DNA of 64,000 bases from Aquamicrobium lusatiense (GTDB taxonomy: Bacteria; Pseudomonadota; Alphaproteobacteria; Rhizobiales; Rhizobiaceae): assembly GCF_014201615.1 (NCBI RefSeq), contig NZ_JACHEU010000003.1, positions 1 to 64,000 of the forward strand. The letters are read 5' to 3'. Made by a program: the position numbers and the translations under genes. Shown here piece by piece: positions 8,992-42,029 of the stretch. Position 1 is the first letter of the stretch, and every line of letters begins with the position of its first letter. The notes under the pieces are model-generated. The model was not told the DNA's origin, searched no databases, and saw only the letters and a list, made by a program, of their open reading frames with translations.

Positions 8992-10137
8992 ATGCGAAAC
9001 AGGCTCACAGGAAGCGCTGCAACGGGTGTCTTCGCTTTGGTTCTGAGCGGGCTTGCCCCGCTTGCATCCATGGCGCAGGAGCAACCGCCGGCGACGGTAA
9101 CGGTCATGAAAGCCGAACCGCAGGATTTCACGGTGACCGCGCGGCTGCCCGGCCGCGTCAAGGCATCCACGGTCGCGGAGGTGCGCCCGCAGGTGTCCGG
9201 CATCATCCGCGAGCGGCTGTTCGACGAAGGTGCGCGGGTCGAGGCGGGCCAGCAGCTCTACAAGATCGAGGACGACACCTATGTCGCCGCCGTAGCCGCG
9301 GCGAAGGCGACTGTCGCGCAGGCCCAGGCCAACTATGATCTGGCGGTGCGTGAAGCCCGCCGCGCCGACGAACTGTTTCAGGCAAAGACCGGCTCCGAAC
9401 AGCGCCGCGACAGCGCCAACGCCACGCGCGATGCCGCCGACGCCGCGCTGCAGCTCGCGAAGGCGCAACTGATGAGCGCCGAGATCGAACTCGAACGCAC
9501 CAATGTGCGCGCGCCGGTTTCCGGCGTTATCGGACTGTCGCAGACGACCACCGGCGCACTTGTCGGCGCACAGCAGGCGACTGCGCTGGCCACCATCCGC
9601 ACGCTCGACCCGATCTATGTCGACGTCACCCAGTCGGCCAACGACCTGATGCGCTGGCAGGGGTCGCGCAAGTCTGAAGAGCCCGGCGCGGATGCCGCAA
9701 CCCTGATCCTGCCGACCGGCGGCGCGTTCCAGCACAAGGGAAAGCTCAGGGCGGCCGAACCGCAGGTGGAGCCGATGACGGGCATGATCACCCTGCGCGT
9801 CACCTTCGACAATCCCGAACACACGCTGCTGCCCGGCCTGTATGTGGAGGTGGAGCTGCCGCAGGCTGTCGCCGAAGGTGCCTATCTGGTGCCGCAGAAC
9901 GCCGTGATGCGCGACACGACCGGCGCCGCCCATGCCTGGGTGGTCGAGGACGGAAAGGTCGCCGTGCGCAATCTCGCGGTGCTGACGGCTTCAGAAAACC
10001 GCTGGGTCATCACCGGCGGCCTGAAGGAAGGCGATGAGATCATCACTTCCGGCTTCCAGAAGATCGGCCCCGGCGCGCCCGTGGAAATCGTGCGCGAGAA
10101 GATTGAAGCAGCCGTGCAGCCGGCCGAAGGAAACTGA
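8992..10137 (+). CDS. RND efflux periplasmic adaptor (AcrA/MexA type)
   Basis: A protein of 381 residues. A signal peptide (about residues 1-28, ending ASMAQEQ) has no lipobox cysteine, so it is probably not lipid-anchored, unlike E. coli AcrA. The order is the usual one: a beta-barrel strand and half lipoyl motif (LPGRVKASTVAEVRPQVSGI), an alpha-hairpin rich in Ala/Gln (about 95-160), a second lipoyl half (RTNVRAPVSGVIG), a beta-barrel and a membrane-proximal domain. It bridges the inner-membrane pump to an outer-membrane channel. The pump gene follows after 3 bases. No outer-membrane factor is encoded here, so a TolC-type protein must come from elsewhere. Confidence 0.9.
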   Translation: MRNRLTGSAATGVFALVLSGLAPLASMAQEQPPATVTVMKAEPQDFTVTARLPGRVKASTVAEVRPQVSGIIRERLFDEGARVEAGQQLYKIEDDTYVAAVAAAKATVAQAQANYDLAVREARRADELFQAKTGSEQRRDSANATRDAADAALQLAKAQLMSAEIELERTNVRAPVSGVIGLSQTTTGALVGAQQATALATIRTLDPIYVDVTQSANDLMRWQGSRKSEEPGADAATLILPTGGAFQHKGKLRAAEPQVEPMTGMITLRVTFDNPEHTLLPGLYVEVELPQAVAEGAYLVPQNAVMRDTTGAAHAWVVEDGKVAVRNLAVLTASENRWVITGGLKEGDEIITSGFQKIGPGAPVEIVREKIEAAVQPAEGN

Positions 10138-28895: not shown

Positions 28896-30170
28896 TCAGA
28901 ACATCAGGTCGGGAAGGAACGTCACCAGCGCCGGCACATAGGTCAGCAGCATCAGCACGCCAAAGGACGCGACCAGAAAGGGCAGGGACGCCTTCGTAAA
29001 ATCCTCCACCGAACACCGGGTGATCGAGCAGACGGTGAACATCACCGTGCCGACAGGGGGGGTCATCGAACCAATGGCAGTGTTGAACACAAGCACCACG
29101 CCGAGATGGACGGGATCGACACCCAGACCCTGCGAAACCTGCATGAGCAGGGGCCCGAGGATCACGATGATCGCCAGCCCTTCGAACACCGTTCCGAGGA
29201 TCAGCAATGCGATGTTGATGATCAGCAGCACGACATACTTGTTGTCCGATACCGAAAGCAGCGTGGTGATCAGGTGCTGGGGAACCTGTTCAAGGCTCAG
29301 GATCAGCGAGAACACCGAGGCCGACGCGACAATGAACATGACGCCGGCGGTGGTGAGCGCTGACTCCGTCAGCAGCGACATGGTTTCTCCGGCCGTCAGG
29401 CCGCGATAGACGATGATGCCGACGAGAAACGCATAGACCGCCGCCACCGCGCCAAGCTCGGTGGGCGTGAACCAGCCGCTGCGCAATCCCAGCAACAGCA
29501 TCACCGGCATGGCCAGAGCCCACAGGGCGGCACGGCCATTGGTCAGGATCTCGGCAGGTTTCGCCCGGCTTTCACGGGCTGGCGCGAGGTTCATGCGCAC
29601 TGCCGTCCAGCGCACCGTGAGCATCAGTGCAACCGCGATGACCAGTGCGGGAATTACGCCGCCAAGAAACAGCTTCCCAATCGAGGTGTCGGTCAGCAGG
29701 CCGTAGATGATCAGCGCGATGCTTGGCGGCATGATCGGAGCAATCAGCGACGAGGCCGCGCTGACGGCCGAGCCATAGGCGTTGGAATAGCCGCGCTTGC
29801 GCATGACCGGCACGATGGTGCGGGCATCGATGGCCGCGTCGGCATTGGCCGATCCCGACATGGCGCCCATGAATACGGAATTCAGCACCGCGATCTGGGC
29901 AAGCCCGCCGCGCCAGTGGCCGACCAGCGTTTCGCAGAAGGCATAGAGGCGATCCGCGATGCCGCCCCGCGCCATGGCCCCGCCGGCAACCACGAAAAGC
30001 GGTATCGCCAGCAGCGGAAAGGATTCCAGCCCGGAAGACATGCGCTGAGCGACGAGGCTGGTCATCATGGGGTTCATGGCGAAATAGGCCATGGAAGCGC
30101 CCAGCATGACGAAACCGACCGGCAGCCCGAGTACAAGAAGAACGACGAAAACAATGGCAACGACGGTCAC
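28896..30170 (-). CDS. TRAP transporter large permease (DctM)
   Basis: A protein of 424 residues with about 12 membrane segments and the DctM/SiaM patterns: SMTPPVGTVMF near the C-terminus and SAASSLIAPIMPPSI in the middle. The start is GTG at 30170 with GGAAGG upstream, and it overlaps the dctQ stop by 4 bases. It is the ion-coupled translocation subunit. It belongs to the operon frlD-dctP-dctQ-dctM, so it probably imports the Amadori compound that the Frl enzymes use. Confidence 0.9.
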   Translation of the reverse strand: MTVVAIVFVVLLVLGLPVGFVMLGASMAYFAMNPMMTSLVAQRMSSGLESFPLLAIPLFVVAGGAMARGGIADRLYAFCETLVGHWRGGLAQIAVLNSVFMGAMSGSANADAAIDARTIVPVMRKRGYSNAYGSAVSAASSLIAPIMPPSIALIIYGLLTDTSIGKLFLGGVIPALVIAVALMLTVRWTAVRMNLAPARESRAKPAEILTNGRAALWALAMPVMLLLGLRSGWFTPTELGAVAAVYAFLVGIIVYRGLTAGETMSLLTESALTTAGVMFIVASASVFSLILSLEQVPQHLITTLLSVSDNKYVVLLIINIALLILGTVFEGLAIIVILGPLLMQVSQGLGVDPVHLGVVLVFNTAIGSMTPPVGTVMFTVCSITRCSVEDFTKASLPFLVASFGVLMLLTYVPALVTFLPDLMF

Positions 30171-30643
30171 GGACGTTCCTTCCTTAAATCCTCGGCCATG
30201 TTGAGAAGAAGACCGGCCATCACGAGAATCATGCCTGTGGCCAGAAAGGCCGCGACGATCCATTTCGGCCACCCGAGCGTGAGAAAGGTCGTGAACCTTG
30301 CGGTGGCGATCTGCGCAAATGCGGCGCGGATCACCTGCGCGCAGATGAGAAGCACGAGGATGTTCGCCAGCAGCCGCGCGAAAGGCGCATATCGCTCCGG
30401 CAACCTGTCGACGAACAGGGAAATGCCGAACAGCTGCCCGTTCATGGACGCGCCGACCAGACCCAGCCAGACCGTGGCGGCCATCAGCACGACCGCGAGC
30501 TCCTGCGCCCACATGATCGAGGTCGCAAAAAAGTTGCGTGCTATGACGTCGGACAGGACAATGACGACCAGCGCCGCAAGCAGCAGCGCGGGCACGGTCA
30601 CGCCCAGAAATTCGATAATCGAGCGCAGCGCTTTCATCGCCAT
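30167..30643 (-). CDS. TRAP transporter small permease (DctQ)
   Basis: A protein of 158 residues with four membrane helices and the DctQ hallmark ATSIMWAQELAVVLMAATVWLG. It forms the membrane complex with DctM. It lies between the binding-protein gene and dctM on the minus strand. Confidence 0.88.
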   Translation of the reverse strand: MAMKALRSIIEFLGVTVPALLLAALVVIVLSDVIARNFFATSIMWAQELAVVLMAATVWLGLVGASMNGQLFGISLFVDRLPERYAPFARLLANILVLLICAQVIRAAFAQIATARFTTFLTLGWPKWIVAAFLATGMILVMAGLLLNMAEDLRKERP

Positions 30644-30667
30644 CGTCTCCTCCCTGTGGGCGGAGGG

Positions 30668-30692
30668 CCGGGCTGATCAGGGGTCAGCCCGG
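30668..30692 (-). other. Intercistronic hairpin after the TRAP binding-protein gene
   Basis: CCGGGCTGA and TCAGCCCGG form a perfect 9-bp stem between dctP and dctQ. Such hairpins often protect the 3' end of the binding-protein message and limit readthrough to the permease genes. Confidence 0.55.
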
Positions 30693-30705
30693 TCCCTCGC
30701 GCTGA

Positions 30706-31704
30706 TCAGTTTCCTGTGGCTGCCGCCCGCACCTGGTCATAAAGGCCCTCCGGCCAGTTCGGGAAGCTGGTGTAGAAGCTTGCGGTTGCCTGACGATAAG
30801 CCTCGATATCGGCTTCGTGGAACGTCACACCCTGCTTCTCGAATTCCTCACGGATTTCTTTTTCGAGGTCGGCGGACACTTTCGTCAGGTCGCGGCCGCC
30901 CTGACGGAATTCCTCAAGGAGAATGCCACGATCCTTATCGCTCATCTGCCGGAACACGGCCTCACTCATCACCCAGCCGGTGAAAAGATTGAAATGGCCG
31001 GTCAGCGTTATCTCCTTGGCGGCTTCCTGCCAGCCCGAGGCCCGCAAGCCGGTCAGCGGGCTTTCGGCAGCCGTAACAACGCCCTGCGAAAGGGCCGAGT
31101 AAACTTCAGCCGCTTCAACCGTCGTGGCCACGACGCCGAGAGGCTGGAAGGTTTTCAGCCACGTCTCCACCGGCGGAACCCGCATGCGCACGCCCTTCAG
31201 GTCCGCCGGCGATGAATAGCTGGCAGTCCCGATCATGTGGCGGGGTCCGTCGAACCAGTTGATGGCGACGACGCGAATGCCGGCTGTCCCGGCGAGCTTG
31301 TCGTAATAGCCCTGCATCAGCGGCGAGAAGGCCAGCTTATCGGCTTCATCCGTATCGGAGACGATGAACGGGCCTTCCAGAATCGACAGTTCGGGAACGC
31401 CGAAGGATGCCAGGAATGAAGCCGAGGTGAAGGTCATCATGGGCAGACCCTGGCTCGCCTGCTCGATGGAATCCGTGGTCGTGCCGAGCTGGCCGGAAGG
31501 GAACCCTTCAAATTTCACCCGTCCGTCGGTGCGCTCCGTAACCCGCTTCGCGGTTTCCATCACGCCCTTCCAGGATTCGCTGGTTGGCGAATTGACCGAT
31601 GCAATGCGAATGGTCACGTCCTGCGCCAGCGCCGTTCCGGCCAGCAGAACAGACAGGGATGCGACAGCGGCGAACATGCCGGGAGATGAATAGTGGCGTG
31701 TCAT
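30706..31704 (-). CDS. TRAP transporter solute-binding protein (DctP)
   Basis: A protein of 332 residues. A signal peptide ends at ALAQ (about residue 28). The mature part is a DctP-type binding protein with the ligand-carboxylate Arg expected in GVRMRVPPVETW and the NWFDGPRHM segment before it. TRAP proteins bind organic acids through this Arg, which fits the carboxylate of a fructosyl-amino acid. It is encoded 63 bases downstream of the frlD gene on the same strand. Confidence 0.88.
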   Translation of the reverse strand: MTRHYSSPGMFAAVASLSVLLAGTALAQDVTIRIASVNSPTSESWKGVMETAKRVTERTDGRVKFEGFPSGQLGTTTDSIEQASQGLPMMTFTSASFLASFGVPELSILEGPFIVSDTDEADKLAFSPLMQGYYDKLAGTAGIRVVAINWFDGPRHMIGTASYSSPADLKGVRMRVPPVETWLKTFQPLGVVATTVEAAEVYSALSQGVVTAAESPLTGLRASGWQEAAKEITLTGHFNLFTGWVMSEAVFRQMSDKDRGILLEEFRQGGRDLTKVSADLEKEIREEFEKQGVTFHEADIEAYRQATASFYTSFPNWPEGLYDQVRAAATGN

Positions 31705-31767
31705 TGAGTTCCTCCTGAGATCTATGCCTAACCCACGTTCGGACGCAGCGGCACCGTCATACGGGCA

Positions 31768-32679
31768 TCACCTTGTGAGAACGATTTCCTTCATGTCTGC
31801 CGGCCCGGCGACAGGCCTCGTGTTCCGGTAAATTTCATCGAGCGTGAGCATCGTGGTCAGATCGATGTCCATCGCTGCGCCATGCCCGAAGGCGCCCGGC
31901 GAGAGGCAGGTTTCCGCGGCGGCCGTGGCGGCTTCGCTCAGCAAAACATCCGGCGCTTCGTCGCGCAGCAGCCCGACCAGCGTGCGGGCGATGAACGTGT
32001 CGCCGGCGCCAAGCGTGTCGACAGGCACGACGGGCGCCGCAGGCACTTCATATATCCCGCCACGGCCGACCAGCATGGCGCCATCCTCGCCACGTGTCGT
32101 GATCGCCCATTGAGCGCCGTTGCGCAGCGCCGCTTCGCCAAGGGCGAGGGCTTCTTCACGGCTCAGGCCGCCACCGGAAAACCCGGCGAGAAAGCAGTGA
32201 GGCGCGAGGCGGGCGATATGTGCTTCATCGCGGATGGTGGCGAAATCATAGGACACGCGGGTCAGCGAGGCGAAACGGGGCAGCCAGGCATCGATGTGGC
32301 TTGAGCGGCCCGTATGCACGGCGTCCGCCCTGCTCATCCGGTCGAGATCGCCCTGCGAAGGCGCAATGATCGACACGCCGAGATTTGCGCCCACGAAAAC
32401 CCGCTCGCCATTCTCATTGGCGATGACGCAATAGGCCGTCTGCCCGGGCATGAAACGCAGCAGCGAGACATCCACCCCCTCGGCGAGGCAGGCATCGCGA
32501 ATGGCCCGGCCCGCCGCATCGTCGCAGACCGCGCCGGCATAGGCGGCTTCTGCGCCAAAACGCCGGGCAAACACGGCGTGATTGACGCAGTTCCCACCCG
32601 GAAACATGCGCTTCTGGTCGCGGTAGCAGTCCACGACATTGTCGCCAAAGGCGATAATTCTGGGGGCCTTTCGTGACAC
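31768..32679 (-). CDS. frlD: PfkB-family kinase, fructoselysine 6-kinase type (FrlD)
   Basis: A protein of 303 residues. The PfkB fold is shown by the substrate-side FPGGNCVNHAVFARRFG (26-42) and the catalytic DTLGAGDTF with GAGD at 224-227. The GGNxVN stretch right after a short N-terminus is the form seen in E. coli FrlD. It should phosphorylate C6 of the fructosyl moiety of an Amadori product. It heads the minus-strand operon with the TRAP genes and is divergent from frlB. Confidence 0.8.
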   Translation of the reverse strand: MSRKAPRIIAFGDNVVDCYRDQKRMFPGGNCVNHAVFARRFGAEAAYAGAVCDDAAGRAIRDACLAEGVDVSLLRFMPGQTAYCVIANENGERVFVGANLGVSIIAPSQGDLDRMSRADAVHTGRSSHIDAWLPRFASLTRVSYDFATIRDEAHIARLAPHCFLAGFSGGGLSREEALALGEAALRNGAQWAITTRGEDGAMLVGRGGIYEVPAAPVVPVDTLGAGDTFIARTLVGLLRDEAPDVLLSEAATAAAETCLSPGAFGHGAAMDIDLTTMLTLDEIYRNTRPVAGPADMKEIVLTR

Positions 32680-32704
32680 GGATATGTCGTCTCCTCATCA
32701 ATGT

Positions 32705-32774
32705 GAGAACGTTCGCAATAAATCGTCCGGCTTGTCAATGGCTGCTTGACACTCTCCAGATAAAATTAATATGT
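32705..32774. promoter_or_regulatory. Divergent frlD/frlB control region
   Basis: The centre GAACGTTC (32707-32714) is an 8-bp palindrome of the kind LacI-family proteins bind. TTGACA (32746-32751) with AT-rich sequence 17-18 bases downstream is a good -35 for frlB. A direct repeat ATGTC-TTATGTC follows. The two regulators encoded in the plus-strand operon (GntR and LacI types) both could act here. Confidence 0.5.
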
Positions 32775-32805
32775 CTTATGTCATCTTATCGAAAGGTGAT
32801 AGCAG

Positions 32806-33810
32806 ATGACACTCCCAGATCGCTTCCATCCGGCTGTTTCGGCCGCCCTGTCGGCCATCGATGCCGATGGTCTGCGCCATGTGTTCTTCGTGGCCTGCGG
32901 CGGCTCTCTGTCGATCATGCATCCGGCCAAGTTCATGCTCGACCAGCATGGAACGGTGGCCTCCGATGTCTACAACGCAGCCGAATTCGTGGCGCGCGCG
33001 CCGAAGCGGCTCGGTCCCGGCACGCTTGTCGTTCTGTGCTCCATGACCGGGACGACGAAGGAGACCGCCGCCGCCGCGAAGTTCGCGCGCGAAAAAGGGG
33101 CGACCACAATCGGCCTCACCGTGGAGCCGGAATCGCCGCTGGGCAAAGCGGTCGATTTTGCCGTGAAATTCGAGGCTCCTTACACGACCGGAACCCCGAT
33201 CGATGCCCGCGACAGCAACTACTCGATCATCTACCAGATCGTCATGGGGCTTGTGGCTGCAACCGGCGGAGAAAATCTCACCGGACCGCTGATCGACAGC
33301 CTGTGCAATCTTCAGGCGGCGATCGACAAGGCGCAGGAAACCTATGCGCCGCTGTGGGACCGCTATGCAAGGCACTTCGCCGCGCAGGACGTGATCTACA
33401 CCATGGCCTCCGGCGCCAGTTACGGCGCGGCCTATTCCTTCGCCATCTGCGTGCTGATGGAGATGCAGTGGATCAACAGCCAGGCCATCCACTCCAACGA
33501 GTTCTTCCACGGACCGTTCGAGGTTCTGGACGAGACGCGCTGCTTCGTGCTGATGAAGGGACTGGACTCCACCCGTCCGCTCGACGAGCGGGCCGATGAA
33601 TTCCTGCACCGCTTCGGCAAGGCTGAGAACATTCTCGTTCTCGACGCGGCAAAGCTCGATCTGTCGGGGATCGACGAGCGCTTCCGGGGCAATGTCGTGC
33701 CGCTGATCTTTTTCGACACGCTCTGGCGCTTCATTTATAAGGTTGCCGACTTCCGCCAGCAGGTCATGCTGGACGGACGCCGCTACATGAAGAAGCTCAC
33801 CGACTATTGA
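32806..33810 (+). CDS. frlB: SIS-domain fructosamine-6-phosphate deglycase (FrlB/FraB type)
   Basis: A protein of 334 residues with two SIS domains (about 15-150 and 185-320). CGGSLS and CSMTGTTKET bind the sugar phosphate. Glu219 in LMEMQW and His235 in NEFFHGPFE have the 16-residue spacing of the catalytic Glu/His pair described for Salmonella FraB. It should split the 6-phosphorylated Amadori product into glucose 6-phosphate and an amino acid. It starts 15 bases after AAGGTGATAGC and is the first gene of the plus-strand operon. Confidence 0.82.
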   Translation: MTLPDRFHPAVSAALSAIDADGLRHVFFVACGGSLSIMHPAKFMLDQHGTVASDVYNAAEFVARAPKRLGPGTLVVLCSMTGTTKETAAAAKFAREKGATTIGLTVEPESPLGKAVDFAVKFEAPYTTGTPIDARDSNYSIIYQIVMGLVAATGGENLTGPLIDSLCNLQAAIDKAQETYAPLWDRYARHFAAQDVIYTMASGASYGAAYSFAICVLMEMQWINSQAIHSNEFFHGPFEVLDETRCFVLMKGLDSTRPLDERADEFLHRFGKAENILVLDAAKLDLSGIDERFRGNVVPLIFFDTLWRFIYKVADFRQQVMLDGRRYMKKLTDY

Positions 33811-33814
33811 GGCA

Positions 33815-34522
33815 ATGATGACGCAGGACGGCTTGCTCCCCCTCTACGAACAGGTGCGACGCAGGCTCCTGTCGGAGATCGAGACGGGCCGTCTTGCCGA
33901 AGGCAGCTTCCTGCCGCCGGAGTTCGAGCTGTGCGCGACCTACGGCGTCAGCCGCATAACGTTGCGGCGGGCTGTTGGTGAACTGTGCGCCGAGGGCGTG
34001 CTGATCCGCCAGCAGGGCCGGGGCACGGTGATCGCGCCCCGCAAGCTGCAGCAATCGATCTCGCTGTCGGGATTCGCGGATGTGGTGGAAGGCAGGGGGC
34101 ACAAGGCCGGCCATCGCATTCTCGGGCGCGAGGATGGCGCCGATGCGCCTGCCGCTGCCAGCCGTCTGCGCGCGGAGCGGGTCGTGCGGTTTGTGCGCCT
34201 TCTCGAAATCGATGACCGGCCGATGACGCTGGAGACCCTGTTCTTCGACGAAGAGCGTTTTGCCGATGCTGTCGGGCCGGTCGGAACCGGCGAGAGCTTC
34301 TTCGCGACCCTGCGGGCAAGTTATGGCGTCGAGCCGGAACATGCCGAACGTGTCATCGACGTCGGGTTCGCCCGCGCTTCCGAGGCTCAGTCGCTGGGTG
34401 TCTCCACCACGGAACCCGTCTACCGAATCGAGAAACTGGTTCTTGGCGCCGGTGGTGCCCCGATAGCCCTGTCCCATACAATCACGCCCTGCCGCCTGGT
34501 CACGCTTGCCGTGAAGAACTGA
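33815..34522 (+). CDS. frlR: GntR/HutC-family regulator (FrlR type)
   Basis: A protein of 235 residues. The N-terminal winged helix (YEQVRRRLLSEIETGRLAEG and YGVSRITLRRAVGELCAEG) is followed by a UTRA ligand domain (about 90-235). FrlR of enteric bacteria has this layout and represses frl genes until the phosphorylated Amadori intermediate is present. It starts 4 bases after frlB. Met at 33818 is an equal start choice. Confidence 0.72.
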   Translation: MMTQDGLLPLYEQVRRRLLSEIETGRLAEGSFLPPEFELCATYGVSRITLRRAVGELCAEGVLIRQQGRGTVIAPRKLQQSISLSGFADVVEGRGHKAGHRILGREDGADAPAAASRLRAERVVRFVRLLEIDDRPMTLETLFFDEERFADAVGPVGTGESFFATLRASYGVEPEHAERVIDVGFARASEAQSLGVSTTEPVYRIEKLVLGAGGAPIALSHTITPCRLVTLAVKN

Positions 34523-34553
34523 GCGGGCGGATGCGATGCCATAAGGAAATGCG

Positions 34554-35489
34554 ATGAAGGTTTATGACGCTGCCGCGGTTCGTGCAGCTTTGCCGTGGCC
34601 CGTTCTCATCAGAGCCTTGTCGGAGGCGCATCGCGGGCCAGTTCCGGCCTCGGACGTCGTGGTGCAAGGCGATCCTGCCGGCAGCGGCAACCAGTTCATC
34701 ACCCTGCCCGGCTGGCTTGCCGGAGGGCCGGTTGCCGTCAAGATGGTGGGCGTGTTTCCCGCGAACGAGAAGCTGACGCCGCCCCAGCCCAATGTTCAGG
34801 GGCTGGTTGCGATGTTCGACGGCTCGACCGGCGCACCGCTTCTCGTCGCTGACGGGGCCGCTATGACCGAGCGCAAGACGGCCGGCGATTCCGCCCTTGG
34901 CGCTTCGCTTCTGGCGCGCGACGATGCTGAAATGCTGCTGATCGTTGGTGCCGGCGCTCTGGCGCCGCATTTCGCCGAGGCGCACATGGCTGCGCGGCCC
35001 TCCCTCAGACGCGTCATGATCTGGAACCGCACCGCGCACAAGGCCGTGGCCGTGGCCGCACAGCTTCGCGCCGGCGGCATCGATGCCGGGGCGGTGAGCG
35101 ACCTCGATGCGGCGGTTCGTCAGGCCGACGTCATCAGCTGCGTGACCATGTCCGACCGCCCGCTGGTGAAGGGCGCGCTCCTGAAGCCCGGAACCCATCT
35201 GGATCTCGTTGGGGCTTACATGACGGAGTTGCGCGAGACCGACGACGACGCTCTGCTCAGAAGCCGGATCTTCGTCGACACGCGCCGCGGCATGGAAAAC
35301 ACCGGCGATCTCGGACAGGCGCTCGCGTCGGGGCTCATATCGCCTGACGCCATCGCCGGTGATCATTTCGATCTCGCACAGGGCAGAGTTCAGGCCCGCC
35401 AGTCCTCTGAGGAAATCACCATCTTCAAGAATGTGGGCGGCGCGCATCTCGACGTGTTCACGGCAATCGCGCTTTTTGAAGCCGGCTGA
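34554..35489 (+). CDS. Ornithine cyclodeaminase / mu-crystallin family enzyme
   Basis: A protein of 311 residues with the family order: an N-terminal substrate domain with GNQFITLPGWLAGGPVAVKMVGVFP, LTERK-like MTERKTAGDSALGAS and a Rossmann NAD site (LLIVGAGALAPHF). Members deaminate ornithine to proline, or reduce ketimines and imino acids. Inside an Amadori operon it may process the amino acid that FrlB sets free, or an imine formed from it. The exact reaction cannot be read. Confidence 0.78.
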   Translation: MKVYDAAAVRAALPWPVLIRALSEAHRGPVPASDVVVQGDPAGSGNQFITLPGWLAGGPVAVKMVGVFPANEKLTPPQPNVQGLVAMFDGSTGAPLLVADGAAMTERKTAGDSALGASLLARDDAEMLLIVGAGALAPHFAEAHMAARPSLRRVMIWNRTAHKAVAVAAQLRAGGIDAGAVSDLDAAVRQADVISCVTMSDRPLVKGALLKPGTHLDLVGAYMTELRETDDDALLRSRIFVDTRRGMENTGDLGQALASGLISPDAIAGDHFDLAQGRVQARQSSEEITIFKNVGGAHLDVFTAIALFEAG

Positions 35490-35558
35490 AATCCGGACCG
35501 GCCGGGAAGACCGGCCGGCGGCGCGGCGGTGAACAGGGATCTGGTGGAGGGACGTACA

Positions 35559-36686
35559 GTGGCGAAGAACCCGAAGGCGACGATTGCCGATGTGGCGCGG
35601 CTTGCCGGCGTTTCGACCGCCACGGCCGGACGCGTGCTCGGCCGTTACGGCTACACGAAGGAAGAAACCCGCAGCCACGTGCTGGAGGCGGCGCGCAAGC
35701 TTGGTTATCGCACCAATGCGCTGGCGCGCAGTCTCATCACCGGAAAGACCCGCACGATCGGCGTCGTTGCCGGTGACATCCAGAACCCGTTCTACGCCTC
35801 GATCCTGCGCGGCATCGCCGATGTCGTCGAAAACCGCGAATTCGGCCTTTTGATCATCAACTCCGATGAGAGCCTCGAAAAGGAAATCCGCGCTGTCGAT
35901 CTGCTGAGGGAAAAGCAGGTGGACGGGATCATCGTTTCGCCATGCGACACGCGCGATTCCCGCCATCTTCGCGATCTTCATGCAGAAGGCCTGCCGCTGG
36001 TGCTTCTCGACCGCACCGTGGCGGGGCTGGATGTGGATCGGGTCGCCATCAACAATATCGACGCTGCCGAGCGTGCGGTCGCCGCCCTGATTGCAGCCGG
36101 TCACAGACGCATCGGCCTCGTCGGAGAGCTGCTTGAAGGGGCCGGCGACGATCTTGAGGCATTTGTCCGCCGCGCGCTTTCCGGCAATGTCCTTTCAACC
36201 GACACGCTCTATCCAAGCTGGCAGCGGCTGCTCGGCTATCTGCGCGCCCACCAGAGGGCGGGGCTCGATGTCGATCTGTCCCTGATATGCCGGGTCGGGG
36301 CCTATTCGGCAGCACGGGCGGTAGCCGCAGCATTGCCGCTGATCAGCCGGGCCGATCGGCCGACCGCGGTTTTCGCCACCGACGGCACGATGTCGGAAGG
36401 TGTCGTGCGGGCAATCGCGCAATCCGCGCTTCGGATGCCCGAAGACCTCTCCATCGTTTGTTTCGATGATCTCGACTGGATGGATTTCGTCGCGCCCGGC
36501 ATATCGACCATGGCCCAGCCCAGACTGGCGATGGGGGAGGCGGCTGCAACCATGCTGCTGGAACGCATCGATGGTTCGGACCACCCCGCAAGAGCGATCG
36601 AGATGCAGGCGGAGTTCATCTCGCGCGGGTCCATTTCCACCCCCGGCCAGACCATCGGGGGCCAGACCAGAGGGAAAAAGCCATGA
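35559..36686 (+). CDS. LacI-family regulator of the Amadori operon
   Basis: A protein of 375 residues if the GTG at 35559 is used; GGAGGGA lies 7-8 bases before it. The N-terminal helix-turn-helix TIADVARLAGVSTATAGRVL is typical and the rest is a periplasmic-binding-like sugar sensor with IGVVAGDIQNPFYASILRGI. A GTG at 35529 would add ten residues without a ribosome binding site. The last codons overlap frlC (ATGA). With the GntR gene it makes two regulators in one operon, unlike enteric frl. Confidence 0.85.
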   Translation: MAKNPKATIADVARLAGVSTATAGRVLGRYGYTKEETRSHVLEAARKLGYRTNALARSLITGKTRTIGVVAGDIQNPFYASILRGIADVVENREFGLLIINSDESLEKEIRAVDLLREKQVDGIIVSPCDTRDSRHLRDLHAEGLPLVLLDRTVAGLDVDRVAINNIDAAERAVAALIAAGHRRIGLVGELLEGAGDDLEAFVRRALSGNVLSTDTLYPSWQRLLGYLRAHQRAGLDVDLSLICRVGAYSAARAVAAALPLISRADRPTAVFATDGTMSEGVVRAIAQSALRMPEDLSIVCFDDLDWMDFVAPGISTMAQPRLAMGEAAATMLLERIDGSDHPARAIEMQAEFISRGSISTPGQTIGGQTRGKKP

Positions 36687-37522
36687 CGCTCGCCCAGACC
36701 CATATTTGCGGCATGAATTTTCATTACTTCCGGCATGGCCTCGATCGCTTTCTGGATGACGCTGAAACGCTTGGCCTGCCACTGGTGGAAATCTGGGGCG
36801 CGGCGCCTCACTTCTATCTGGGCGACAGGACGCTTGCCGATGCCCGGGCGCTCGGCGCAAACATCCGGGCGCGGGGAATGGCGATCAGCTGCTTTACCCC
36901 GGAACAATGCGTGTATCCGATCAACCTCAGCTCGCCTCAGGCAGAATTGCGCGACCGATCGATCCGGTATTTTCTCGAAAGTCTTGAAATGTCCGTGGAA
37001 ATGGGCAGCCCCGCGCTGCTCGTCACACCGGGATCAGGCTTTGCTGACCAGCCCCGCAGCGAGGCTTTCGAGCGTTGCGTGGCGGGACTTCGGCTTCTTG
37101 CCGATCGCGCCGGCAAGCTCGGCCAGAAGCTGTTCCTCGAAGCGCTGCCGCCGGCCTGGTCCAACATCGCGGCAACCGCAACGGAGCTTCGCACCCTCCT
37201 GGATGCCGTGGGTTCGAACGCACTCTTCGGCATGCTGGACACGGCCGGAGCCCTCGGCACCGGCGAAACCGTGACCGACTATGTCAACGCTCTGGGTGAC
37301 AGGCTGGCGCATGTGCACATGATCGATTCCGATCCGGCCGGCAGCCATCTGTCATGGGGCGATGGGGTGCTTTCGGCACAGGCGATCGTCTCCGAACTGC
37401 AAGGCGCCGGATATGGGGGCGCCCTGTCGATCGAGATCACCAGTCCCCGCTATTATCTCGATCCGAAAACCGCGATGGCGCGCTCGGTGGCCGCGCTCCG
37501 CAGCGTGCTGCCGGAAGGCTGA
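36683..37522 (+). CDS. frlC: Sugar-phosphate isomerase/epimerase family, fructoselysine 3-epimerase type (FrlC)
   Basis: A protein of 279 residues with a TIM-barrel xylose-isomerase-like fold. EIWGAAPHF, CFTPEQCVYPINL, FLEALPPAWSN, MLDTAGA and HVHMIDSD line up one after another with the same blocks in E. coli FrlC. FrlC interconverts fructoselysine and its C3 epimer psicoselysine. The metal-binding Glu and His residues lie in those blocks. The start overlaps the LacI stop. Confidence 0.78.
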   Translation: MTLAQTHICGMNFHYFRHGLDRFLDDAETLGLPLVEIWGAAPHFYLGDRTLADARALGANIRARGMAISCFTPEQCVYPINLSSPQAELRDRSIRYFLESLEMSVEMGSPALLVTPGSGFADQPRSEAFERCVAGLRLLADRAGKLGQKLFLEALPPAWSNIAATATELRTLLDAVGSNALFGMLDTAGALGTGETVTDYVNALGDRLAHVHMIDSDPAGSHLSWGDGVLSAQAIVSELQGAGYGGALSIEITSPRYYLDPKTAMARSVAALRSVLPEG

Positions 37523-37618: not shown

Positions 37619-38467
37619 TTACGCTGCCGGTTCTCTGCTGGCTGAAGCCTGCATGGTGACGCTGCCGGTCTGCGAGCGGACCCAGAGCGTGTGATCCTGT
37701 GCGCTGGCTGCGGCGTTCACGGTGAAACTGCCGCCGTCAAACAAGGGCGCAATGCTGCGAAACGCGAAACGGGCAGGCATGCGGCCTTCATTCATGCGGC
37801 AGACAAGCCGCAGAAGATAGGTTGCCTGAAGCGGGCCGTGCACCACGAGACCCGGATACCCTTCCTCCCGCTGGCAATAGTCACGATCGTAATGGATCCT
37901 GTGTCCGTTGAACGTGACCGCCGAATAACGGGCCAGAAGAACCGGGCTCGCCCCGACCTCATGCGAGGCGTCGGGCGACGGCTGCGGAATGTCCTGCGCG
38001 GCTCCGGCCGATGCCGTCCGGACCGGCCGGTAGACGATATCCTGACGCTCGCTCAGCACCTGCCCACGGGGACCGGAATAGTCGTGAGTGACCGTGACGA
38101 AGCACAGCATGCCCGTGCGGCCGGTCTTCAGCGCCACATCAGCTATGCGGGAACGCCGGATCATGGCGTCGCCGACCCGGAAGTCCCCCGAAAACACCAG
38201 CTCCCCACCCGCCCACATGCGGCGGGGCAGGGCGACCGGCGGCAGGAAATCGCCGCGCGCAGGATGGCCGTCCGGCCCGAGGCCCGACATCGGCGCGATA
38301 TCCGGTGACAGGCACCAGTGGATGCCGGCGGGCGCCGGATCACCTTCCCCGAGACGCGGCGCCTCGTCCAGCACGGCGGCGAGGCCGTTTGCGAGACGCG
38401 GCGAGATCACGTCCCGGCTTTCGCGGGTGGTGCCGATCCAGCTTTTCAGATGGTCCAAATCGAGCAA
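37619..38467 (-). CDS. ich: Itaconyl-CoA hydratase type / mesaconyl-C4-CoA hydratase (double hot-dog)
   Basis: A protein of 282 residues with two hot-dog halves: an N-terminal FAS1-type dehydratase half (PPVALPRRMWAGGEL) and a MaoC-like C-terminal half with the hydratase motif around FNGHRIHYDRDYCQREEGYPGLVVHG. It should hydrate itaconyl-CoA to citramalyl-CoA. It is the last gene of a minus-strand operon whose order matches the P. aeruginosa itaconate locus (PA0878-PA0883). Mesaconyl-C4-CoA hydratase is the main alternative. Confidence 0.75.
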   Translation of the reverse strand: MLDLDHLKSWIGTTRESRDVISPRLANGLAAVLDEAPRLGEGDPAPAGIHWCLSPDIAPMSGLGPDGHPARGDFLPPVALPRRMWAGGELVFSGDFRVGDAMIRRSRIADVALKTGRTGMLCFVTVTHDYSGPRGQVLSERQDIVYRPVRTASAGAAQDIPQPSPDASHEVGASPVLLARYSAVTFNGHRIHYDRDYCQREEGYPGLVVHGPLQATYLLRLVCRMNEGRMPARFAFRSIAPLFDGGSFTVNAAASAQDHTLWVRSQTGSVTMQASASREPAA

Positions 38468-38512
38468 TGCAGGATCCTCTTTTTTCGCCTGAGCCGTGAC
38501 GATGCGCCGGCT

Positions 38513-39682
38513 TCAGAAAGAGCGGGGAAGGCCAAGAATATGCTCTGCCACATAGGACAGAATGAGATTGGTCGAAATCGGAGCCACCTGATAAAGGCGG
38601 GTCTCGCGGAATTTACGCTCCACATCATATTCGCAGGCGAAGCCAAAACCGCCGTGGAACTGCAGGCAGGCATTGGCTGCCTCCCAGCTTGCCTTTGCCG
38701 CCAGATACTTCGCCATATTCGCTTCGGCTCCGCAGGGCATGCCGGCGTCGAACTTGCGGCAGGCCTCGTTGCGCATGAGGTTGGCCGCCTCGATTTCGAT
38801 ATAGGCCTCGGCAATCGGAAACTGCACGCCCTGGTTCTGGCCGATCGGGCGGCCGAACACCACGCGATCCGATGCGTAAGCGACGATCCTGTCGGTAAAC
38901 CAGTAGCCGTCGCCGATGCATTCGGCGGCGATCAGCGCCCGCTCGGCATTGAGGCCGGTCAGGATATATCTGAAGCCCTGTCCCTCTTCGCCAATCAGGT
39001 TTTCTGCCGGGATTTCGAGGTCATCGAAGAACAGCTCGTTGGTCTCGTGATTGACCATGTTCAGGATGGGGCGCACCTGCATCCCCTTCTTCATCGCCTC
39101 CTTCACGTCGACCAGGAAGATCGAAAGTCCCTCTGATTTCTTCTTCACCTGATCCAGCGGCGTGGTGCGGGCAAGCAGGATCATCAGATCGGAATGCTGC
39201 ACCCGGCTGATCCATGTTTTCTGCCCGTTGATGACCCAGCGGTCGCCTTTCCTGACCGCCGCCGTCTTCAGTTGGGTGGTGTCGGTCCCGGTTGTCGGTT
39301 CGGTGACGCCCATGCTTTGCAGGCGCAACTCGCCGCTCGCGATCCTTGGCAGGTATTTCCGCCGCTGCTCGTCCGACCCATGCCGGACCAGCGTGTTCAT
39401 ATTGTACATCTGCCCATGGCAGGCACCCGAATTGCCGCCGGCGCGGTTGATCTCCTCCATGATGATCGCCGCTTCGGTCAGGCCGAGACCCGAGCCGCCA
39501 TAGGCTTCCGGGATCAGCGCCGACATCCAGCCTTCCTTCGTGAGCGCGTCGACGAATTCTTCAGGATAGGCACGCGCCTCATCCACCTTCCGGTGATACT
39601 CGGCCGGGAAACCGGCGCACAGCGCGCGGATGCCTTCACGCAGTTCGGCATGGGTTTCGTGCTGACTGTTTATGTCTTTCAA
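38513..39682 (-). CDS. Acyl-CoA dehydrogenase of the itaconate-type cluster
   Basis: A protein of 389 residues with the usual three-part acyl-CoA dehydrogenase fold: LQSMGVTEPTTGTDTTQLKT and INGQKTWISRVQHSD for FAD, and the C-terminal helical domain. The usual catalytic Glu near the C-terminus (in YEGT of MCAD) is replaced in RLYQVAPISTN. A Glu at 247 in LNAERALIAA fits the position used by isovaleryl-CoA dehydrogenase. The P. aeruginosa locus has the same family at this place (PA0879). The substrate is unknown. Confidence 0.85.
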   Translation of the reverse strand: MKDINSQHETHAELREGIRALCAGFPAEYHRKVDEARAYPEEFVDALTKEGWMSALIPEAYGGSGLGLTEAAIIMEEINRAGGNSGACHGQMYNMNTLVRHGSDEQRRKYLPRIASGELRLQSMGVTEPTTGTDTTQLKTAAVRKGDRWVINGQKTWISRVQHSDLMILLARTTPLDQVKKKSEGLSIFLVDVKEAMKKGMQVRPILNMVNHETNELFFDDLEIPAENLIGEEGQGFRYILTGLNAERALIAAECIGDGYWFTDRIVAYASDRVVFGRPIGQNQGVQFPIAEAYIEIEAANLMRNEACRKFDAGMPCGAEANMAKYLAAKASWEAANACLQFHGGFGFACEYDVERKFRETRLYQVAPISTNLILSYVAEHILGLPRSF

Positions 39683-39718
39683 GGCAGGTCTCCGGTGGAA
39701 ATGCGGGCGCTGGCGCGA

Positions 39719-41074
39719 TCAGCCGAACCAGCCGCGCAGCGAAGGGGCTTGCGGCAGTTCGCCAAGGCGGGCCAGCAGGGCGTCGGCGCCATGGTTGAGC
39801 ACGGGGCCGGCAAGTGTCCTGAACTTCGTTGCCATCGCTTCGCGGTCCGGGAAACTGCCCGGCTCGCCGGATGGGTCGGCAATGCGAAGACGGTGATCGA
39901 CATCGCCTGTGCGCAGCGTCAGGGTCGCGCCGAATGGATGGCGCAGCCCTTCGAGCGTTTCGTCGCGCACCACATCGACGCGATCGGCCAGCGCCTCGAC
40001 CTCCGCTTTTCCGAGCAGGTCGTAATCATCCCAGCCGAAGCGCCCGCGCAACAGGGCGACGGCTGCGGCGAACGGCATCGAGAACTGGCCTTCGACCACG
40101 CTGCGGGCCCGCCGCTTTTCCTCAAGCGGCGCGCCGACAAGGGTAATGCCGTTGCGGTGCAGCCCCACGGTGATTTTCTGCACATCCTCCGGTGCAAGGC
40201 CCAGTTCCGCCCTCAGGGCGAGAATGCCGTCCACGGCGGCGTGGGTATAGCGGCAGGCCGGGTAAGGCTTGACGCCGATGCGCATGGTTTCCCAGACGCC
40301 GCCAAGGCCCGCAACAACCCGGGACGGTTCTGCGCCGTCGCTGTAGCCGCCGAGAAACCCGTGCTTGCCGTCGATCGCGTCCTCGGCGCCGACAAACCCG
40401 GAATCCGCAAGGGTGGCGGCCATCAGCCCCTTCATGGCCGCTTCGCCCACCTGATATCGCTTGTTCCATGCGCCGTTGACGAGGAACTGAAGCGATCCGG
40501 ACGCCTGGCTGGCGGCGACCCCGAAGGCGGAGGCCATGGCGTCTCCATCGAGGCCGAGCAAACGCCCGGCGGCGGCTGCCGCGCCGAATGTTCCGGCGGT
40601 TGCGGTGGGATGAAAGCCGCGCGCGTAATGCGCAGTCGGGTCCAGTGCCATTCCGAGCCGGCAGCAGACCTCGAAACCGACGACCACCGCGGCAAGAAAT
40701 TCCGCGCCCGATGCACCCGTCATCTCAGCCGCCGCAAGAGCTGCCGGAACCACCGGCGCGCTTGGGTGCAGGGAACTGTCGGCGTGGGTGTCGTCGAAAT
40801 CGAGACTGTGCCCGAGGGTTCCGTTGAGCAAGGCGGCAGCCGCCGCGCCATAATGGCGGTTGAGGCCGAAAACCGTGCACGGGCCTTCGCCGTCCATGCC
40901 AAGCCGCCCAAGCATGGCAAGAACCGCCGGCGTTGAATCCGCTTCATGCGCCGCCCGCAGGACCGACCCCGTCAGGTCCGTCACCAGTGCAAGCGCGCGC
41001 GCCGTGACTTCGGCCGGAATCTCGTTCGCAGCGAACCCCGCTGCGAAATCGGCCAGAGTTCTGGTCACTGACAT
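39719..41074 (-). CDS. MmgE/PrpD-family protein of the itaconate-type cluster
   Basis: A protein of 451 residues with the PrpD fold: GTLGHSLDFDDTHADSSLHPSAPVVPAALA near residue 85 and the helical C-terminal region. Known members dehydrate 2-methylcitrate or isomerise aconitate-like acids. A member lies in the P. aeruginosa itaconate locus (PA0881), possibly acting on related tricarboxylates. The start overlaps the ccl stop by 10 bases. Confidence 0.85.
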   Translation of the reverse strand: MSVTRTLADFAAGFAANEIPAEVTARALALVTDLTGSVLRAAHEADSTPAVLAMLGRLGMDGEGPCTVFGLNRHYGAAAAALLNGTLGHSLDFDDTHADSSLHPSAPVVPAALAAAEMTGASGAEFLAAVVVGFEVCCRLGMALDPTAHYARGFHPTATAGTFGAAAAAGRLLGLDGDAMASAFGVAASQASGSLQFLVNGAWNKRYQVGEAAMKGLMAATLADSGFVGAEDAIDGKHGFLGGYSDGAEPSRVVAGLGGVWETMRIGVKPYPACRYTHAAVDGILALRAELGLAPEDVQKITVGLHRNGITLVGAPLEEKRRARSVVEGQFSMPFAAAVALLRGRFGWDDYDLLGKAEVEALADRVDVVRDETLEGLRHPFGATLTLRTGDVDHRLRIADPSGEPGSFPDREAMATKFRTLAGPVLNHGADALLARLGELPQAPSLRGWFG

Positions 41075-41898
41075 ATGTCGCTCCTCCCGGCCGGCATCGC
41101 GTGGCGGGCCATGATCTGCCGGGCCCGTTGCACCACAGGCGCATCCACCATCGCCCCGTCGACCCGAACGGCGGCACCGCCCGCCTGCGCCGCAAGCACG
41201 CGCTTTGCCCAGCCAAGCTCATCCTGCGATGGCGCAAAGCCTCGTCGGGCGGGGGCGATCTGGGCGGGATGGATCAGCAGCTTCCCGGAAAAACCCAGCT
41301 CCACCGCATGCGCGCAATCCTCTGCGATGAGACCGGCATCGTGGATGGCGGTGGTGACGCCGTCCAGAGGGGCGGCCTTTCGGGCGATGCGCGCCGCCAT
41401 GACAAGGGTTGAGCGTGCCATCAGCAGCGACTGGCGCGTATGGGCCATGGCAAGGTCGGCGGCGAAATCGATGGAGCCGAAGGCTATGCGTTCCGAAGCC
41501 CCCGCAATCCCCACCGCCCGGTGCAGGCCGGCAGCTGATTCGATCAGAGCGATCACCGGACAGCCGCAGCGATCTGCGACCCGATGGAGATCTCCGGGTT
41601 CTTCGGCTTTCGGCACCATCACCGCGGCAAGAGGCAGGCGACGGGCAGCTTCGATGTCGGCTTCGTGCCATTCCGTGTCCGTGCCATTGATGCGCAACAG
41701 GACGGGCATCGCCCGCGGCATGGCCGCCAGCCCTTCGACGAGCAGGTCGCGCGACGCGGCTTTGGCCTCCGGCGCTACGGCGTCTTCCAGATCGACGATC
41801 ACCGCGTCGGCGCCGGCTGCGGCAGCCTTGAGGAACCGTTCCGGCCGGTCGGCCGGCACGAAAAGCGGCAATGTCAGACTGGCGATTTCCCCTGGCAT
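41065..41898 (-). CDS. ccl: CitE/HpcH-family lyase, citramalyl-CoA lyase type
   Basis: A protein of 277 residues, CitE-like TIM barrel: LFVPADRPERF, VDLEDAVAPEAK (Mg ligands), the active-site LLRING, IALIESAAGL and FGSIDFAADLAM. It should cleave citramalyl-CoA to acetyl-CoA and pyruvate, the last step of itaconate breakdown. The ATG at 41898 was chosen because it gives the family N-terminus; no strong ribosome binding site is seen. It is the first gene of the minus-strand operon. Confidence 0.78.
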   Translation of the reverse strand: MPGEIASLTLPLFVPADRPERFLKAAAAGADAVIVDLEDAVAPEAKAASRDLLVEGLAAMPRAMPVLLRINGTDTEWHEADIEAARRLPLAAVMVPKAEEPGDLHRVADRCGCPVIALIESAAGLHRAVGIAGASERIAFGSIDFAADLAMAHTRQSLLMARSTLVMAARIARKAAPLDGVTTAIHDAGLIAEDCAHAVELGFSGKLLIHPAQIAPARRGFAPSQDELGWAKRVLAAQAGGAAVRVDGAMVDAPVVQRARQIMARHAMPAGRSDICQ

Positions 41899-41978
41899 CG
41901 GATTTTCCGGCTCCCCTCTGGCCCGGGGATGATGGGGACAGAGGGGTATAAAGGGAAATATATTTTTTATCTCAATTC

Positions 41979-42029
41979 CATAACGCAAATGTATCTCGAC
42001 GCGCGCCGGAGCCATCTGTTTTCGTTATG
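41979..42029. promoter_or_regulatory. Inverted elements in the divergent ccl/ict promoter
   Basis: CATAACG (41979-41985) and CGTTATG (42023-42029) are perfect inverted copies whose centres are 44 bp apart, about four helix turns. Extended to 16 bases, the two elements share 12 positions. The nearby LysR gene encodes the probable binder. Confidence 0.5.

Follow-up and report, generated by a model that had tools for sequence, protein, structure and literature searches.

Can a tripartite ATP-independent periplasmic (TRAP) transporter feed a pathway for the recycling of Amadori products, the glycated amino acids commonly present in heated food, gut contents, soil, and rotting plant matter? The question is raised by positions 28896-37522 of a 64,000-nucleotide stretch of Aquamicrobium lusatiense DNA (contig NZ_JACHEU010000003.1, positions 1 to 64,000; hereafter the window), where frl-like genes stand together with a complete dctPQM set. 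Nine open reading frames form two tightly packed operons that diverge from each other, frlD-dctPQM and frlB-gntR-ocd-lacI-frlC, and their content, order, and coordinates agree with the original prediction made for this DNA. We propose that the locus is a two-operon regulon for the uptake and recycling of glycated amino acids, most likely glycated lysine, imported by the TRAP transporter, and we assign this reading a probability of about 0.72; an Amadori role is the best reading of the gene set. The original prediction knew of no described Amadori system fed by a TRAP carrier, and none was found in a library of 5.39 million open papers, which omits most subscription journals.

All nine proteins exceeded the Pfam gathering scores in a profile search. 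The minus-strand operon begins with the gene for a FrlD-like PfkB kinase (31768..32679; PF00294), followed by dctP (30706..31704), dctQ (30167..30643), and dctM (28896..30170), with spacers of 63 bp between frlD and dctP and 62 bp between dctP and dctQ and a 4-bp overlap between dctQ and dctM. The plus-strand operon comprises genes for a predicted FrlB-like SIS-domain deglycase (32806..33810), a GntR/UTRA regulator (33815..34522), an ornithine cyclodeaminase (OCD)/mu-crystallin-family protein (34554..35489), a LacI-family regulator (35529..36686), and a FrlC-like sugar-phosphate isomerase/epimerase resembling fructoselysine 3-epimerase (36683..37522), successively separated by 4, 31, and 39 bp and, between lacI and frlC, overlapping by 4 bp. 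These short intergenic distances fit two operons, and the arrangement is not a matter of chance because it recurs across Alphaproteobacteria.

The three Frl-like proteins point to the Amadori class. The top NCBIfam model of FrlD was fructoselysine 6-kinase (NF007321, 128.9 bits; next family, 67.5), that of FrlB was NF008481 (103 bits; next family, 57.2), and that of FrlC was NF007360 (140.2 bits; next family, 31.1). All three scores lie below the corresponding equivalog cut-offs of 247, 430, and 305, so the proteins are named FrlD-, FrlB-, and FrlC-like and are not filed as equivalogs. The nearest sequence to FrlB in the PDB was 3eua, a putative fructose-amino acid-6-phosphate deglycase (E 6.8e-82). 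The motifs on which the original prediction had relied proved invariant, with FrlB Glu219 and His235 present in 87/87 aligned rows (preselected at >=50% identity) and the FrlD GAGD motif (residues 224-227) in 77/77; the rows were picked by similarity, and one plasmid region is counted twice (L054 = L128). We take Glu219 and His235 to be the counterparts of E214 and H230 of FraB, given the equal Glu-His spacing. In Salmonella, the FraB E214A variant is described as catalytically inactive (PMC12755824). A frlD gene was present in 74 of 80 FrlB loci. FrlB and FrlD carry the sequence features of the Amadori kinase-deglycase class, namely a predicted SIS deglycase with Glu and His and a PfkB kinase in the same locus. 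Three loci (L053, L092, and L113) contain a second, distant frl-like set within ~10 kb of the first (FrlB 27-28%, FrlD 29-30%, and FrlC 30-34% identity).

The tie between the transporter and the frl genes, which the original prediction had only inferred, was followed in the best 80 of 95 FrlB relatives from a scan of genome contigs, with neighboring genes mapped by tblastn. DctP, DctQ (PF04290, 76.4 bits), and DctM (PF06808, 377 bits; TIGR00786, 403 bits, above the cut-off of 268) are the components of a TRAP system. The search for frlB next to dctPQM that the original prediction had called for placed the DctP clade of the window in 24 of the 80 FrlB loci, four of which also contain an ATP-binding cassette (ABC) importer; 51 have only an ABC importer of the polar-amino-acid kind (PAAT-type, SBP_bac_3), and five have neither, one of them on a 3.3 kb contig (L065) and the others in stretches of 11-16 kb (L096, L111, L113, and L115). 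The automatic tally with an 8 kb limit had given 52 ABC, 19 TRAP, 4 with both, and 5 with neither; by hand, weak ABC matches in L064 (32-35% identity) were dropped and the TRAP genes of L054, just beyond 8 kb, were added. The two carriers can occupy the same place. L076 (Microvirga) reads OCD-DctM-DctQ-DctP/LacI/FrlD/FrlB-GntR, and L082 (Aureimonas) reads OCD-ATPase-permease-solute-binding protein/LacI/ On a quick FrlB tree of 86 rows, the TRAP label requires 10 changes, at least 7 of which are forced by starred branches, gain and loss being indistinguishable.

The distribution of DctP points in the same direction. Of 297 genomes from the order, 30 encode FrlB-like proteins (E <=1e-30) and two, the window genome and G242, encode DctP (E <=1e-60); these two also carry frlB. 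Across 385 genomes of the class, with at most five candidates scored per genome, the only further DctP matches lay in two genomes at 37-39% identity. A search of 72,556 plasmid records yielded DctP matches at E <=1e-50 in 12. In all nine with at least 60% identity, SIS and OCD genes lie no more than 10 kb away, and in eight of the nine a PfkB-family kinase gene (named ribokinase in two) directly precedes dctP, while the three at 37-40% identity have no FrlB or FrlD match by tblastn. Among the searched genomes and plasmids, no member of the DctP clade (>=60% identity) was found without frlB. Recurrence in rearranged loci, in-place exchange with an ABC importer, the shared LacI operator described below, and this restriction of the clade to frlB carriers together give strong support to the TRAP-Frl linkage.

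Several loci of this survey have features of their own. A member of the 37-40% DctP group, L130 (Agrobacterium sp. 33MFTa1.1 plasmid NZ_CP036360.1, 1-18897), has a second, distant TRAP system (DctP 39% identical to that of the window) beside two other SIS-domain genes and a gene for a FrlC-like epimerase (134 bits). Also present are a gene of the asparaginase family (255.6 bits, cut-off 314) and, immediately after dctM, one annotated as isonitrile synthase family at only 39.9 bits. This locus may possibly be another TRAP-fed sugar-amine system. The region shared by L128 and L054 (Microvirga sp. VF16 plasmid pMVF16-5) is a composite island of three adjacent importer modules: an ABC importer of type 1, a TRAP-OCD module that has a LacI and an operator to itself, and a fused ABC importer of type 2 with an oxidase. 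In L084 (Mesorhizobium sediminum), the dctP and dctM matches are each broken in two and frlD has a short frame (9357-9872), which may reflect a decaying operon or sequencing errors.

The divergent promoter (32680-32805) holds two conserved elements, a LacI-type palindrome and a GntR-type box. The palindrome, TGAGAACGTTCGCA at 32704..32717, covers the frlD-dctPQM promoter, its center lying 32 bp from the frlD start, and is predicted to be bound by the LacI-family regulator (PF00356 and PF13377). The pattern TG[N][GT]AACGTT[CA][N]CA, derived from the first loci and widened once, was surveyed in 1,735,517 bases, made up of 88 stretches that comprise the window, the 80 loci, and 7 others. It occurs at 127 sites, and all 127 lie upstream (-30 to 260 bp) of frlD, frlB, dctP, genes for ABC binding proteins, lacI, frlC, or a neighboring oxidase gene. 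They represent 120 distinct sequence contexts in 75 of the 88 stretches, and 108 fit the stricter TGNGAACGTTCNCA; ten mononucleotide shuffles gave no match. Across the 4.39 Mb genome, only the window site is an exact match to the strict pattern. When one mismatch to TGNGAACGTTCNCA was allowed, there were five places in the genome, compared with four for a reversed-pattern control, which suggests that four of the five are due to chance.

The operator often follows dctP where this gene has moved. Where dctP does not stand directly behind frlD or frlB, it has an operator of its own in L054/L128, L064, L076, L077, and L079, and none in L066, L075, and G242. A site with at most one mismatch is present at frlD, frlB, or dctP in 22 of the 24 TRAP loci; the exceptions, L070 and L100, are also the only two TRAP loci without a lacI match of at least 45% in the stretch examined. 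The second element, TATGTCATCTTA (consensus TATGACGTCATA), lies at 32777..32788, 17 bp upstream of the frlB start, where the GntR regulator (PF00392 and PF07702) is predicted to act. A box with at most three mismatches to TATGACGTCATA was found in 46/46 rows with gntR and in 0/35 without it (at least four mismatches there), a consensus that was chosen after the upstream sequence of 24 of the 81 rows had been inspected. The box of the window itself has three mismatches and is among the six weakest.

The OCD-family gene, present in 63 of the 80 FrlB loci, offers a clue to the amino acid. The original prediction had called its product an ornithine-cyclodeaminase-family enzyme; family membership holds, and the catalytic Asp of a cyclodeaminase is missing. 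At the position of Asp228 (P. putida OCD numbering), 68 of 69 rows have Tyr and one has Trp, the position having been set by alignment with L149, a genuine OCD also encoded in this genome (1u7h, E 1e-119), which keeps the Asp. In the modeled OCD mechanism, Asp228 is described as taking the proton of the alpha-amine (PMC3497308). Ornithine or lysine cyclodeaminase activity was rejected for this protein on the ground of the replacement in all 69 rows. Its top NCBIfam model was NF004793 (Delta1-pyrroline/piperideine-2-carboxylate reductase; 309.8 bits, narrowly below the curated cut-off of 322; next family, 163.2). Because the catalytic Asp is replaced and NF004793 is the top model, the protein is likelier to be a ketimine reductase, probably acting on Delta1-piperideine-2-carboxylate, than a cyclodeaminase.

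Genes for lysine and pipecolate catabolism accompany part of the kin loci. A flavin adenine dinucleotide (FAD) oxidoreductase whose top model is L-pipecolate oxidase scored 412 bits in L041 and 443 bits in L126, below the cut-off of 600. Homologues of it (>=39% identity) occur in 11 of the 24 TRAP loci and in 1 of the 56 others (Fisher p 2.4e-6, not corrected for kinship); of these 12 proteins, that of L041 was scanned with hidden Markov models, as was that of L126 outside the 80, and the rest were counted by tblastn identity. On the Sulfitobacter plasmid L126, the oxidase homologue is followed by an aminotransferase, Delta1-piperideine-6-carboxylate (P6C) dehydrogenase (803.9 bits, cut-off 730), and HglS (702.8 bits, cut-off 550). 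L041 (Aquamicrobium aerolatum DSM 21857), which matches the window in gene order and whose FrlB has the highest identity to that of the window (91%, among the FrlB tree rows), contains relatives of the oxidase, the aminotransferase, P6C dehydrogenase, and HglS. In the window genome, HglS (757 bits) and P6C dehydrogenase (820 bits) genes lie ~1.6 kb apart on the contig that also holds the window (C3:325660-332291), accompanied by aminotransferase and LysR relatives. In the D-lysine catabolism of P. putida, HglS is described as converting 2-oxoadipate to D-2-hydroxyglutarate (PMC7286885).

Glycated lysine is therefore proposed as the substrate, because relatives of pipecolate oxidase, P6C dehydrogenase, and HglS occur near part of the kin loci, the latter two also elsewhere in the window genome, and a ketimine reductase is predicted in the locus itself. 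The original prediction had named a fructosyl-amino acid: homology and context give good support to a glycated amino acid as the class, and lysine as its amino-acid half, which had not been proposed before, is a reasoned proposal from the genes of kin loci. Other oxidoreductases also occur in the survey. Many ABC-type loci (most of L043-L063, e.g. L043:5352-9893) have a GlpD-like FAD oxidoreductase in common, often joined by an old-yellow-enzyme-type oxidoreductase, together with frlC, and several have the LacI-type operator upstream. In a group of Mesorhizobium loci (L099, L101-L107, L112, and L116), no gntR or ocd match was found, a ThiO/DadA-like FAD oxidoreductase gene directly follows frlB, and the importer is a permease-ATPase fusion.

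An alternative that overlaps the proposed lysine route, so that the odds of the two are not exclusive, is that TRAP uptake serves glycated amino acids in general, like the Frl system of B. subtilis, or Amadori opines such as deoxyfructosyl-glutamine, and that the lysine and pipecolate genes are side modules in some genomes. It is a serious contender, which we hold at rather less than an even chance. The lysine genes are not adjacent to the window locus, and FrlB is nearest to 3eua, a deglycase of the B. subtilis type, which we take to be a B. subtilis protein. The B. subtilis pathway is described as preferring alpha-glycated amino acids (PMC12632257). However, neither a general nor a glutamine-specific route has an obvious use for a ketimine reductase, and the OCD-family gene is present in 63 of the 80 loci; moreover, pipecolate oxidase tracks the TRAP loci.

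It is improbable, in our estimate, that the TRAP system imports an unrelated acid (pipecolate itself or a sugar acid) and has no more than an operon in common with frl genes whose substrates enter by another carrier. As judged from structure titles, the ligands of solved TRAP binding proteins with the DctP fold are sialic acid, sugar acids, ectoine, or isethionate, and the 50 structure matches listed for DctP are TRAP binding proteins in general, which discriminate no ligand. DctP has a signal-like N-terminus (by eye) and conserves Arg155 and Arg175 in 30/30 rows of its clade, again picked by similarity; judging by the motif, we take Arg175 to occupy the position of SiaP Arg147, the conserved carboxylate-binding Arg. 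The stronger correlation of pipecolate oxidase with TRAP than with ABC importers and the retention of both carriers in four loci could also be read in favor of an unrelated acid. Against this stand the one-for-one swap with an amino-acid ABC importer in the same place and under the same operator, and the nine of nine close plasmid DctP homologues that sit with a SIS gene. In addition, the exchanged ABC binding proteins have no close relative in the window genome. Within the window, the ABC queries matched ATPase-type stretches elsewhere and no binding protein or permease, and the idea that the genome encodes such an ABC importer at another place was rejected, as matches to the two exchanged ABC binding proteins were only 24-34% identical.

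It is very unlikely that the substrate of the SIS and PfkB proteins is a different phosphorylated amino sugar (e.g. glucosaminate, a glucosyl-amine, or a Heyns-type product) and that the locus is no Amadori system. In favor of this reading, the SIS protein also weakly matches GlmS and NagB-type models, the Frl scores stay below their cut-offs, and 2a3n, a putative glucosamine-fructose-6-phosphate aminotransferase by name only, matches at E 1.2e-33. Against it, the three Frl models each lead by a wide margin and co-occur, and 3eua (E 6.8e-82) is a far better match than 1moq (a GlmS chain; E 7.2e-7) and 3tbf (E 9.9e-9).

Several observations weigh against a TRAP-fed Amadori regulon for glycated lysine. 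FrlB, FrlD, and FrlC all score under their equivalog cut-offs, and the operator and box patterns were derived from part of the data later counted. The wider operator pattern fits a second place in the genome (C1:1270863), where no recognizable Frl gene was seen by eye. In L066 and L075, dctP lies ~2.1 kb behind frlD with no site of its own, and in G242 a dctPQM-OCD-oxidase-LacI module stands ~22 kb from frlB, frlC, and frlD on the same contig, its dctP lacking an exact operator. Lysine-route genes stand beside few loci, with P6C dehydrogenase relatives in 5/80 and HglS relatives in 4/80, and the full set is the exception. A close pipecolate oxidase was not found in the window genome, where the best candidate reached 189.6 bits compared with 412-443 in the two kin proteins scanned. 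The presence of both TRAP and ABC importers in four loci, and the association of pipecolate oxidase with TRAP instead of ABC, could mean that the carriers differ in substrate.

With these reservations, the regulon for glycated amino acids may work as follows. DctP would capture a periplasmic fructosyl-amino acid via its carboxylate, and DctQM would import it, driven by an ion gradient. FrlD would then phosphorylate the sugar at C6, FrlB would cleave the phosphorylated compound to yield glucose 6-phosphate and release the amino acid, and FrlC would rescue 3-epimers (psicosyl forms). After alpha-oxidation or racemization steps encoded elsewhere, the ketimine reductase would convert lysine-derived Delta1-piperideine-2-carboxylate to L-pipecolate, and further enzymes, found in some kin loci and elsewhere in the window genome, would carry the carbon to 2-oxoadipate and on to 2-hydroxyglutarate. 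LacI would repress frlD-dctPQM through the operator at 32704, and GntR would act on the frlB operon through the box at 32777. The scheme at its most complete is tentative, and we place it somewhat below even odds: fructosyl-lysine imported by TRAP, lysine freed by FrlD and FrlB, and ketimine reductase, pipecolate oxidase, P6C dehydrogenase, and HglS leading to 2-hydroxyglutarate, with TRAP and ABC import cassettes exchanged under one LacI operator as unrelated carrier classes evolving to the same substrate. Adjoining the locus, window positions 37619-42015 hold MaoC-like, acyl-CoA dehydrogenase, MmgE/PrpD-like, and CitE-like genes (by eye only), a separate acid-degradation cluster.

If the proposed regulon is correct, a secondary, ion-driven, binding-protein-dependent carrier joins the permease, phosphotransferase system (PTS), and ABC carriers known for Amadori products, and the substrate range of TRAP transporters widens to glycated amino acids. 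The loci would then provide a naturally occurring set of cases where one importer class takes the place of another, unrelated one while the operator stays the same. The analysis also provides a concrete functional guess for a common, unassigned OCD-family gene and suggests that DctP might serve to sense glycated lysine.

Compared with known systems, the locus combines familiar enzymes with an unfamiliar carrier. The E. coli frlABCD system for fructoselysine and psicoselysine has the FrlB, FrlC, and FrlD set in common with the window, whose three proteins fall below the NCBIfam cut-offs, and its uptake reportedly proceeds through the FrlA permease. Uptake in the Agrobacterium soc system for santhopine is by a binding-protein-dependent ABC importer, and the Salmonella fra and gfr systems use carriers of the FraA type or a PTS; to our knowledge, the latter two systems have neither OCD nor TRAP genes. 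The likeness to Salmonella fraBDAE (fructose-asparagine) and gfr lies in a SIS deglycase with an essential Glu, FraB, and in the kinase FraD (PMC12755824). B. subtilis frlBONMD-frlP shares with the window the FrlB deglycase, the FrlD kinase, and a dedicated binding-protein importer, which there is the type I ABC importer FrlONM for fructosamines, energized by FrlP or MsmX, and the operon description consulted names no OCD, LacI, or TRAP gene (PMC12632257). The rhizobial PAAT-ABC loci of this analysis come nearest, sharing frlB, frlD, lacI, the operator, and mostly ocd and gntR with the window, with an ABC importer in place of TRAP. Finally, the pipecolate oxidase, P6C dehydrogenase, and HglS of the P. 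putida D-lysine/L-pipecolate pathway have counterparts next to some kin loci, with the latter two above their cut-offs in L126; in P. putida the pathway is described as serving free lysine (PMC7286885), whereas in the kin loci its counterparts stand beside a deglycase regulon.

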